Below, piece by piece: positions 4,388 to 34,268 of a stretch of 34,268 nt of DNA (its first letter is position 1; each line of letters starts with the position of its first letter). The DNA is from Terriglobia bacterium (GTDB lineage: Bacteria > Acidobacteriota > Terriglobia > 20CM-2-55-15). The stretch lies in NCBI GenBank assembly GCA_036496425.1, contig DASXLG010000178.1, positions 1 to 34,268 of the forward strand. Direction: 5' to 3'. The position numbers and the translations under genes were made by a program. Below the pieces are notes generated by a model. The model did no database searches, was not told where the DNA came from, and saw only the letters and a list, made by a program, of their open reading frames with translations.

Positions 4388-5755
4388 CTACCTTGGATGA
4401 AGCTTGGCGAAACGCTGCTCAGGATACGGGTGTTGGAGGCGAGGCACCGGAACCCAGCGTTCGGACAGTCTCAGGAACTGCGTCCACCGAAGCCGGCCGC
4501 ACTGACTGCGGCGCCGGAGGGTGCGCAGCCATTGACGCTGAATCTGGCGGTAGAAGTGACCGAGCGTATCCAGATTGCCAGGAACCGCATGGTACAGGTA
4601 ATAGCCTGTTACCACGCGATGCAACCATTCACCCGTGAGAGCGACCGGTTCATGCATGCGCTGTCGGAGCGCGACCTTGATTTGCCGCAACTTTTCCGTC
4701 ATGCGCCGTTTCGCCGTCTTTCTCCAGACAATGAAGCTGCCGTTCGAACGACGCTTACCGCAGATATGGACGAACCCGAGAAACGTAAACGTTTCCGGCT
4801 TGCCCTCTCCACGTTGACGCCGATTCGATTCCGCCTTCTGGCCAAACTCGATCAGCCGAGTCTTGGCGTCGTGCAGCTCCAACCCGAATTTGGCGAGCCG
4901 GTCCTTGAACTCATTCAAAAACTGCTCCGCTTCCTGCCGGTGTTGAAACCCCACCACAAGGTCATCGGCATAGCGCACGACAATCACGTGACCACGCGCG
5001 ACCTTGCGTCGCCAAGCTTCTACCCAAAGATCGAAGGCGTAATGCAGGTAGATATTCGCCAGCAGGGGCGATATCACTGCACCCTGCGGCGTACCTACCT
5101 TCGTCTCCGACCACTCGCCGGCTTCGGAAACTCCAGCCTTCAACCATTTCTGAATGAGCCGGAGCATTCTCGGATCGGCGATCCGATGCTCTACAAACTT
5201 GAGCGTCCATTCGTGACTCATATTGTCGAAGAATCCGCGAATGTCGGCATCCAATATCCAGTTCACCGGCTTCCGCATAATGCCCACTGCCAGCGCATCC
5301 AACGCCTGGTGAGCTCCGCGTCCCGGCCGAAACCCGTAAGAGAATCCTCGAAAGTCGACCTCATAAATCTCGTTGAGGATTGTCACCACGGCCTGTTGAA
5401 CAATCTTGTCTTCCAGCGCCGCAATACCCAACGGCCTTTGCCGGCCATCGCTTTTCGGTATGTAGACTCTCCGTGACGGTTTTGCCCGGTACGCGCCGCG
5501 GTGAACCCGGCTGTGGAGATCGGGCAACCGATCGTCCAATCCGGTTTCATACTCCTGCCACGCCATCCCATCGATTCCGGGCGCTGCCTGTTTCTTTAAG
5601 GCATAGTAACTGTCCCGCAGCAGATCGATCGTGACGTGATGCAAGAGTGCAGTGAACCGTTCCTGTCTTCTTTCCTTTGCAACTCTTCGCACACCCTGAA
5701 GTCCCTCAGGCACGCCGTGTTTCTCGCTCTGTGTCGAGGACATGGGGTCCTTCAT
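4388..5755 (-). CDS. ltrA: Group II intron reverse transcriptase/maturase
   Basis: Intron-encoded protein of 455 residues that splices the intron and copies it into DNA targets. RT blocks are clear: PGIDG (59-63), IPKSDGRQRPLG (99-110), ADIRGFFD (170-177), GTPQG (221-225) and the active-site YADD (262-265). The maturase (X) region follows, ending in the basic LHPYPEQRF tail. No HNH endonuclease domain is present, in keeping with IIC introns that target hairpins using the RT alone. The ATG at 5755 is preceded by AAGGAG with 6-base spacing; an earlier in-frame ATG at 5815 has no such site. No frameshift or lost motif is visible, so the element is probably competent. Confidence 0.95.
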   Translation of the reverse strand: MKDPMSSTQSEKHGVPEGLQGVRRVAKERRQERFTALLHHVTIDLLRDSYYALKKQAAPGIDGMAWQEYETGLDDRLPDLHSRVHRGAYRAKPSRRVYIPKSDGRQRPLGIAALEDKIVQQAVVTILNEIYEVDFRGFSYGFRPGRGAHQALDALAVGIMRKPVNWILDADIRGFFDNMSHEWTLKFVEHRIADPRMLRLIQKWLKAGVSEAGEWSETKVGTPQGAVISPLLANIYLHYAFDLWVEAWRRKVARGHVIVVRYADDLVVGFQHRQEAEQFLNEFKDRLAKFGLELHDAKTRLIEFGQKAESNRRQRGEGKPETFTFLGFVHICGKRRSNGSFIVWRKTAKRRMTEKLRQIKVALRQRMHEPVALTGEWLHRVVTGYYLYHAVPGNLDTLGHFYRQIQRQWLRTLRRRSQCGRLRWTQFLRLSERWVPVPRLQHPYPEQRFAKLHPR

Positions 5756-6226
5756 GATGTTCTCCTTAGTCTGCGGCCTTCCCTCCCCCTCCTCCGCTGA
5801 CGTCGTTTCCGCCATTGTTCGGAGAGTTCATCGGTACTATGCCGCAGTCCGACTCCTCACCGGCGTTCATGCGCGTCTTCAGCTTTCGCCTTCACGCACC
5901 GGCCTGTTCACTTCCTTCAGGCGCCGACGAGGTCTCCCGGTTCTCGTGCATATTGTTTCTTCGCGTGCACGGGGTCTTCGACTACGCGGGATACCATCAA
6001 CACTCGCGAAACCGTCTTGATGATTGTGGCCTTCCCCATCTGTCCACAGGGTCAGCATCCCAATTGGCTTTTTCGCAGCTCTATACCCGGCCCACGAATG
6101 CCTCTGTCTACGCTTCGACCGCCACCTCACGATGACTGCCGCAAGACTCGAGGTCAGGATGGTTCGCTACTCCTTTCCTGCAGGACTCTTTCATTCCCGA
6201 CAACATGCCGGTTTATCCCGGCGCAC

Positions 6227-29303: not shown

Positions 29304-29383
29304 TGCATCATTGAATCATTTCGACGTTTTTTCATTTCTTCAATTGAAGCAATGAAGAAACGTCGAAATGATTCAATGATGCA
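29304..29383. repeat. 33-bp-arm palindromic hairpin (copy 2 of the TGCATCATT family)
   Basis: Arms 29304-29336 and 29351-29383 match over 33 bases with one U-G type mismatch; the outer 26 bases are perfect. The 14-base loop itself holds the palindrome CTTCAATTGAAG (29338-29349). It lies between the convergent hydrolase and TonB-like genes and would fold strongly in either transcript. The terminal TGCATCATT/AATGATGCA is shared with the element at 1-69. Confidence 0.85.
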
Positions 29384-33080: not shown

Positions 33081-33146
33081 AGTTAGGCGCGTGGCCGCGT
33101 CATCGCCCCAGCCCTCGTTACGCGAGGGCATCCCCGCCTAACTCAG
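33050..33146. repeat. Palindromic element abutting the tandem array
   Basis: GGGGAG/CTCCCC (33050-33055, 33061-33066) forms a small hairpin. A larger stem CTGAGTTAGGCG/CGCCTAACTCAG (33078-33089, 33135-33146) is perfect over 12 bases and encloses CCCTCG/CGAGGG (33112-33117, 33123-33128). The right arm ends exactly where the first 41-base unit begins (33147), so element and array probably belong together. Confidence 0.7.
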
Positions 33147-33515
33147 TCCCAGGACATTGTCGCGAGACGACAAAGTGCTTGGACGCGTCCCAGGACATTG
33201 TCGCGAGGCGACAAAGTGCTTGGACGCGTCCCAGGACATTGTCGCGAGACGACAAAGTGCTTGGACGCGTCCCAGGACATTGTCGCGGGACGACAAAGTG
33301 CTTGGACGCGTCCCAGGACATTGTCGCGGGACGACAAAGTGCTTGGGCGCGTCCCAGGACATTGTCGCGAGACGACAAAGTGCTTGGACGCGTCCCAGGA
33401 CATTGTCGCGAGACGACAAAGTGCTTGGGCGCGTCCCAGGACATTGTCGCGAGACGACAAAGTGCTTGGACGCGTCCCAGGACTTTATCGTGGCGCGACA
33501 AAGTGATTGGCCCCT
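33147..33515. repeat. 41-bp tandem array, 8 full copies plus 1 degenerate
   Basis: Units start at 33147, 33188, 33229, 33270, 33311, 33352, 33393, 33434 and (degenerate) 33475. Each begins TCCCAGGACATTGTCG and contains a hairpin TTGTCG-5 bases-CGACAA; the junction between units is a second palindrome GGACGCGTCC. Differences between copies fall in the hairpin loop (CGAGA, CGAGG, CGGGA) and at one base of the junction (GGA/GGG), while the stems stay fixed. The length 41 is not a multiple of three, so reading frames through it rotate and it is not coding. It contains no spacers, so it is not CRISPR. Confidence 0.92.
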
Positions 33516-33586
33516 TCTAGCTTCCAAAGTCGCCTCGTTAGGTATATTTAACAGTCACTTACGGATTTCGGAAAAATCTTTGCCAC

Positions 33587-33626
33587 CTGTGACAAACAGG
33601 GGGGTCCGAAACGTTGTACCTGATGA
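33587..33626 (+). promoter_or_regulatory. 40-bp duplicated promoter-like element, copy 1
   Basis: CTGTGACAAACAGG... (33587-33626) matches 34083-34122 at 38 of 40 positions. TGTGAC and CGTTGT are 18 bases apart, similar to the -35/-10 layout of ECF promoters, and CCTGT/ACAGG (33586-33600) makes a small palindrome over the -35 part. It lies just upstream of the broken ECF sigma gene at 33634, as an autoregulated promoter would. Promoter activity is inference. Confidence 0.6.
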
Positions 33627-33633
33627 AGGGCAG

Positions 33634-34059
33634 ATGAGCACCGAAATGGATGGAGAGGAAACAAAGGATGGCCGTGGCGGACGAACAACCGAGGACCTGT
33701 TCGTCGAGCACTACGATTTCATGTTTCGCGCGGCCCGGAAATCTCTCAGGAAGACGGAAGATGCCCAGGATGTGATTCAGAGCTTGTACTTAAAGCTCAT
33801 CGATTCCAAGCTTCCGCCGGATGTCTGGAGGGACCCGAAGGGCTACCTCTACAGGACGCGTGTCATGACTGGAGACGGGCGCGGAAAAGCCGCAGGGAAA
33901 ACCGGGGAGTCGAGCAGCTCGAAATCCGGGAGCCCCGCAGCGAGCACGCGAACCAAACGAGCCCCAACTGGCCTTCAGCATCACGGCGGAAGGCAAATGC
34001 ATGCTGAGTTCAGTGAAAACCGGGGCCAGGCGCCTGGTCGAAGCGCTCGCGGATTTTGA
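33634..34059 (+). pseudogene. ECF-type RNA polymerase sigma factor, frameshifted
   Basis: From ATG 33634 the protein reads LFVEHYDFMFRAARKSLRKTEDAQDVIQSLYLKLID then WRDPKGYLYRT, a typical sigma-70 region 2 of ECF type. At about 33858 the sense jumps to the frame giving CHDWRRARKSRRENRGVEQLEIREPRSE, the expected continuation (region 2 end and linker); some bases of the conserved LYRTAxNxC stretch have been lost. This second frame ends in a stop near 34000 and no region 4 follows, so the gene has lost its -35 recognition part. A third frame (about 33972-34070, ...TGARRLVEALADFE) is open to a stop but unassigned. Confidence 0.72.
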
Positions 34060-34082
34060 ATAGCTAAAAAAAGTTTGAGGGG

Positions 34083-34122
34083 CTGTGACAAACAGGGGGT
34101 TCCCAAACGTTGTACCTGATGA
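34083..34122 (+). promoter_or_regulatory. 40-bp duplicated promoter-like element, copy 2
   Basis: Second copy of the element at 33587-33626, with differences at two positions. It sits 36 bases upstream of the ATG of the intact-looking ORF at 34158, the same kind of place copy 1 has before the sigma gene. Conservation of the whole 40 bases while the sigma gene has decayed suggests recognition by another sigma factor, possibly a paralogue elsewhere. Confidence 0.6.
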
Positions 34123-34157
34123 GGAAGCAAATACGGAAGAAAGGAGGTAAAAAGCCA

Positions 34158-34268
34158 TGACAAAACAAGTACGTGTGAAACTGGCCTACGCCGGCATCGC
34201 TGATATGCAAGTTGCGACTCAGGGGATCGCCGTCGTGGACGGAATGACGAACAACACGAAGTTGCCGA
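34158..34268 (+). CDS. Partial ORF downstream of ECF-like promoter, runs off the window
   Basis: Starts with MTKQVRVKLAYAGIADMQVA and continues open to the window end (37 residues seen). An excellent ribosome site, AAAGGAGGT (34141-34149), is eight bases before the ATG. The N-terminal part is soluble with no signal peptide. I have an impression of a family of small acidobacterial proteins of unknown function with this kind of start, but cannot assign one. It is the most likely target of the promoter-like element at 34083. Confidence 0.7.

Follow-up and report, generated by a model that had tools for sequence, protein, structure and literature searches.

Tandem operators and upstream activating sequences are palindromic sites that lie on one helix face upstream of a bacterial promoter. 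The iterons of plasmid replication origins are direct repeats about two helical turns apart that are bound side by side; they are asymmetric and occur at the origin together with a Rep gene. The known element nearest in layout to the one reported here is sopC (parS-F) of the F plasmid, where a SopB/ParB dimer binds the 16-bp inverted repeats contained in twelve 43-bp tandem repeats (PMC9178275, PMC6238139).

Here we analyse a tandem array near the end of a stretch of 34,268 nucleotides (the window), which is contig C178 of a 6.16-Mb genome in 407 contigs. Dozens of such arrays exist in this uncultivated Acidobacteriota lineage, where nearly every paralog of one gene family, the FnIII family, has an upstream array of its own. 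Sequences differ from locus to locus, but a spacing of about 20.5 bases and mirror symmetry are common to the arrays, which appear to represent a novel type of gene-control DNA.

In length, copy number, a period near four helical turns and the presence of dyads, the array comes close to sopC, and its 41-bp dyad units resemble the tandem repeats of about 43 bp, each with an inverted repeat, of a sopC-type partition centromere. Membership in sopC nevertheless fails: no sopA/sopB-like genes were seen at the array loci, the one ParB_N match of the genome lies on contig C219, and here dozens of chromosomal arrays of unrelated sequence each stand upstream of an FnIII gene. Iterons share the two-turn repeat spacing but are asymmetric, whereas arrays of the present class are mostly symmetric, and a survey of recurring array neighbours found no Rep initiator gene among them. 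Tandem operators differ in that about 5-13 units are continuous here, with a private sequence per paralog and a single gene family as partner. REP/BIME elements, with their RAYT genes, are likewise dispersed palindromic repeats; here there is one RAYT gene in the genome, and the arrays are long, regular and fixed upstream of one gene family. No known family passed the membership tests made, and we rate the class as new. A literature search with narrow terms, covering few subscription journals, returned no description of paralog-owned arrays of fixed geometry and free sequence; for arrays as such, a narrow search gave relevant papers limited to sopC.

The array in the window and its copies

The coordinates of the features discussed are collected in Table 1. 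TRF returned a single array (period 41, 8.9 copies, 95% matches, zero indels, score 646), and the unit list gives eight full units, starting at 33146, 33187, 33228, 33269, 33310, 33351, 33392 and 33433, with a decayed ninth, where the preliminary description had placed them. Differences among the full units are confined to two loop positions and one junction base. The stem TTGTCG/CGACAA is kept in all eight, the loop reads CGAGA five times, CGGGA twice and CGAGG once, and the junction GGACGCGTCC is replaced by GGGCGCGTCC in two instances; in each of these points the earlier account was accurate. It was also right that the array is not a CRISPR, the units abutting without unique spacers between them. 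That the array is non-coding holds as well, although several frames are open across it, the unit lacking stop trinucleotides by chance. A protein-coding repeat was considered and rejected because of stops in most frames of other arrays in the class.

Two kinds of dyad alternate along the array, the hairpin type (centres 33165.0, 33206.0 and so on) and the junction type (33185.5, 33226.5 and so on), at a centre-to-centre distance of exactly 20.5 bp throughout. The array is thus a row of palindromes two helical turns apart, similar when read on either strand.

Table 1. Features of the window array and its surroundings, with related genes at other loci (positions refer to the window unless a locus is named)
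Feature	Position	Strand	Remarks
Tandem array, 41-bp unit x 8.9	33146..33510	.	consensus GTCCCAGGACATTGTCGCGAGACGACAAAGTGCTTGGACGC; TRF and unit list
Hairpin-type dyad TTGTCG-CGAGA-CGACAA, first copy	33157..33173	.	recurs every 41 bp; last intact copy 33444-33460
Junction dyad GGACGCGTCC, first copy	33181..33190	.	recurs every 41 bp until 33468-33477
Decayed ninth unit, gene-proximal	33474..33514	.	GTCCCAGGACTTTATCGTGGCGCGACAAAGTGATTGGCCCC; unit list
Non-repeat leader	33515..33589	+	CTTCCAAAGTCG...GTATATTTAACAnTCACTTACGG
ECF-type promoter-like motif	33590..33619	+	TGACAAACAGGGGGGTCCGAAACGTTGTAC; before the sigma-gene relic; promoter function putative
ECF sigma-factor gene relic	33634..33955	+	internal deletion; intact homologue L070:4514-5068
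PadR-like gene, 3' remnant	33957..34063	+	gene follows the sigma gene; intact homologue L070:5046-5537
Second promoter-like motif	34086..34115	+	TGACAAACAGGGGGTTCCCAAACGTTGTAC; before the FnIII gene
FnIII-family gene start	34157..34268	+	37 codons within the window
TIGR03435/DUF3738-type gene	L070:5585-6550		family match
TIGR03435/DUF3738-type genes	L072:2347-3240, L093:4955-6640		resemblance only

The FnIII gene runs off the end of the window; contig C322 starts with an exact copy of the window's final 93 bp and carries the gene on to its stop. Between array and gene stand two promoter-like motifs, starting 80 and 576 bp beyond the array end. A genome-wide search for the motif (TGACAAACAGGGGG...CGTTGTAC) at up to three mismatches gave six matches, all of them before ECF or FnIII genes of the system. 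Its ECF-like layout and this distribution suggest that it would be the promoter of an ECF sigma factor. Since the motif lies between array and gene, the array falls outside any transcript initiating there.

Many FnIII genes have a long leader between array and gene. In leaders such as those of L173, L184, L183, L158, L159 and L165 a pseudoknot is likely, formed by pairing of the hairpin loop CCGGCCGC or CCAGCCGC with GCGGCCGG/GCGGCTGG further downstream; the hairpin arms vary between loci with pairing retained, and Rfam gave no match at these leaders in the loci scanned. Other leaders (L154, L162, L166, L176, L179) contain TGGCAC-N5-GTGC-like sequences that resemble sigma-54 promoters, and seven FnIII loci have as neighbour an ORF of one family (up to 625 aa) that resembles, by reading only, an FHA-type sigma-54 activator. 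Elsewhere in the window are a group II intron RNA (RF02005, E=1.9e-51; 5972-6189, minus strand) with a reverse transcriptase ORF (4388-5815, minus strand), and two long near-perfect inverted repeats at 29304-29383 (80 bp, 95%) and 2803-2872 (70 bp, 89%). Rfam matches in the window at E=0.1-1 were to miRNA families and were ignored as far under the cut-offs.

The preliminary description had proposed a genome-wide search for the unit and a comparison of copy number among strains. The search was positive: the window unit forms arrays of 10.2 and 9.6 copies on contigs C198 and C367 and occurs singly on C108 (near the contig end) and C39. Leader and sigma gene recur at C198 and C108, and the leader in part at C367, which has the leader only; at C198 both the sigma gene and the PadR-like gene are intact. 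The unit had no exact match in a scan of 84,980 genomes and was absent from 60 relatives, and homologous DNA was found in none of 30 relatives.

Other arrays of the genome have other sequences. The second-best homologue of the sigma gene (78% identity), on C378, is preceded by a 6.2-copy array of period 41 and unrelated sequence; C15 has a third array sequence, again of period 41, and C80 a 123-bp (3 x 41) repeat. An FnIII-family gene is present at these three loci as in the window.

Arrays and the FnIII gene family

Proteins of the FnIII family are about 210 residues long and combine a helical domain at the N-terminus with a fibronectin type III domain at the C-terminus. There are at least 50 copies in the window's own genome (G000) and 4 to 26 in four of five genomes of the same genus (26 in G004; none found in the fifth, G005). 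The family was absent from 55 other relatives, and a phylum-wide sample of 396 genomes contained it in just two more, both belonging to other families; a search of other species matched one genome, read as G004. Plasmid and phage collections yielded no FnIII match, and the plasmid collection no array match. Values of dN/dS of about 0.1-0.6 show purifying selection on the genes. ECF, PadR-like, FnIII and TIGR03435-type genes recur as neighbours at array loci, FnIII being the only gene common to nearly all of them. TIGR03435/DUF3738-type genes, an Acidobacteriota paralog family, repeatedly adjoin arrays or array loci and are oriented towards the array. The helical domain of FnIII has a charge near neutral, and an AlphaFold model from a two-sequence alignment (mean pLDDT 75) gave known-fold matches limited to the fn3 half; for these two reasons we do not claim DNA binding by FnIII.

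The association was measured at loci chosen by FnIII match score, blind to arrays, an array being scored where a segment at most 1.5 kb upstream had a self-identity of at least 46% at lag 40, 41 or 42. Such arrays were found upstream of the FnIII gene at 16 of 20 loci in the window's genome, 12 of 19 in the same genus and six of eight in two other families. Downstream of the genes the same criterion gave none in 46. Among 191 control windows the two that scored were runs of N, and after their removal the count was 0 of 189; in other genomes, codon-periodic DNA in rare cases just reaches the 46% threshold (0.46-0.47 at lag 42). TRF found no array of 40-42 bp in 467 kb of genomes that lack the FnIII family. 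Best lags at FnIII loci were 40, 41 and 42, and also 20, 21, 60, 63, 80 and 82, whereas control lags track codons; in the two distant families the upstream arrays have units of 21, 42 or 63 bp. The 39 arrays measured are 190-531 bp long, and the median distance from array end to the start of the matched FnIII protein is 356 bp. Some FnIII genes have no recognisable array, and two arrays of period 41, at L166:1934-2345 and L159:14662-14810, are orphans far from any detected FnIII gene.

Neutral minisatellites that arose by replication slippage and stand upstream of FnIII genes by chance would have homogenised copies and changing copy numbers, and one orthologous pair of arrays does diverge like its intergenic flanks. 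We nevertheless consider this origin very unlikely, given that the arrays are always upstream, symmetric and of period 40-42 only, with a sub-period of 20-21, and that the pattern is repeated in three families and absent elsewhere.

Symmetry, turnover and mobility of the arrays

Of 34 periodic arrays, 25 had a reverse-complement identity 3 sd or more above that of column permutations that preserve the period. A stricter measure of consensus symmetry averaged 0.61 against 0.46 for shuffled consensuses, and 12 of the 39 arrays exceeded the 99th percentile; some arrays have weak symmetry, among them most of those from the two distant families. Conservation across copies is higher in columns paired in the dyads than in unpaired columns (0.846 vs 0.743, p=4e-19).

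Conserved symmetry would also be expected of a transcribed array whose hairpins are functional or processed RNA units, another role put forward earlier. Two window units folded as RNA are predicted to be 5.6 sd more stable than dinucleotide shuffles (z -5.6), most arrays are dyad-symmetric, paired columns have slightly more G.U-forming than A.C-forming transitions (243 vs 173), and an orthologous pair of arrays shows one consensus-level compensated arm change. Set against this, the transition bias is found in unpaired columns too, and compensated double changes at the level of single copies numbered 28, against 35 expected from arm shuffling (29 arrays, about 2,470 cells). A base-paired RNA or a cruciform would be expected to show such compensation in individual copies; given its absence, the symmetry is a property of the site and not of pairing inside a copy. 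Rfam has no family at gathering score over the arrays, the window dyad GGACGCGTCC leaves no space for a loop, and leader and promoter-like motif both lie downstream of the array. We therefore regard the RNA reading as unlikely; a double-stranded dyad site read by a dimer fits better than an RNA hairpin.

The period is near four helical turns everywhere, and in the A+T/G+C patterns even harmonics dominate, which is a sub-period of 20-21 bp. Phase-locked repeats that bend or stiffen the DNA upstream of a promoter, bound by no sequence-specific protein, would account for a conserved period despite free array sequence. That the dyad-paired columns are the most conserved is not required by such an architectural role, to which we give a decidedly low probability.

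Array consensuses fall to about random similarity once FnIII protein identity drops to about 70%; judged by sequence comparison, the array changes faster than the FnIII gene. In the orthologous pair L176/L179 (90% protein identity) array copy number differs by indels, so that the expected variation among strains is borne out for an array other than that of the window; the array diverges at a rate like that of the intergenic flanks, and the consensus arms changed jointly from GCTGTCCAG/CTGGACAGC to GCTGTCTAG/CTAGACAGC. The suggestion of a selected structure or binding site combined with homogenised copies we judge right. Co-divergence of array and gene is significant yet weak (Mantel r 0.13) and was set aside as evidence of recognition, since co-duplication alone would yield the same.

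In several pairs of recent copies homology extends from the outer edge of the array to 12-15 bp past the FnIII stop, limits which indicate that array and gene move as a unit. At the end of the duplicated unit, for example in L154, L162 and L166, the copies share about 12 bp after the stop and then continue with a hairpin that differs per copy. Array and gene might accordingly form a dispersed unit without a transposase of its own, with the array as its recombining or growing end; the window's unit occurs at four loci and as a relic in differing surroundings, and the FnIII copies are many. Yet no transposase, terminal repeats or target duplication were recognised, most paralogs are old and diverged, the FnIII genes are under purifying selection, and the architecture of the arrays outlasts their sequence. 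These points make a mobile-unit end improbable. The related proposal of a repeat-amplifying element is disfavoured in its RAYT form, as the one Y1_Tnp match of the genome adjoins the C15 array only.

A putative operator array and its meaning

Our preferred reading, to which we give a probability of roughly 45%, is a row of palindromic operators, phased with the helix and placed upstream of a promoter; among the roles listed in the preliminary description, a protein-binding array appears the best supported. The window array would be a cis-acting DNA element of about 17 dyad sites spaced 20.5 bp, successive dyads being two helical turns apart and all presumably presented on one helix face. It would act from immediately upstream of the promoter region of the FnIII gene, which here has an ECF-type motif, the local sigma gene surviving only as a relic. 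A putative dimeric DNA-binding protein would most likely fill the dyads side by side, and the bound dimers may build a multi-dimer complex that controls the adjoining promoter. Copies would be homogenised within each array, so that each locus may drift to a private sequence while spacing and symmetry are retained. We infer that a protein binds, that the motif acts as a promoter and that the array regulates the FnIII gene.

Because the arrays are unrelated between paralogs of about 70% protein identity or less, recognition would have to be either fast co-evolving or sequence-tolerant. That each FnIII paralog, or a partner varying with the paralog, recognises its own upstream array only is a conjecture we think rather doubtful. 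If true, there would be some fifty private protein-DNA address pairs per genome, with sequences turning over by concerted evolution under a fixed two-turn dyad layout, and these would make up a new class of self-diversifying gene-plus-array units.

If the array turns out to be an ordinary operator array, the class would count as a variation on an already known type of element. Recognition of regulatory DNA normally depends on conserved letters; in the present class the letters vary freely, and what is conserved is the geometry, a palindrome per two helical turns, together with the partner gene family. The arrays, their spacing, symmetry and sequence turnover are observed, as is their position upstream of FnIII genes in three families of the phylum; geometry and partner family are conserved across dozens of paralogs and those three families. 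If confirmed, the system would supply, within a single cell, many parallel site arrays that evolved independently, a natural collection for studying how close paralogs keep their DNA-protein specificities private and how tandem sites undergo concerted evolution.
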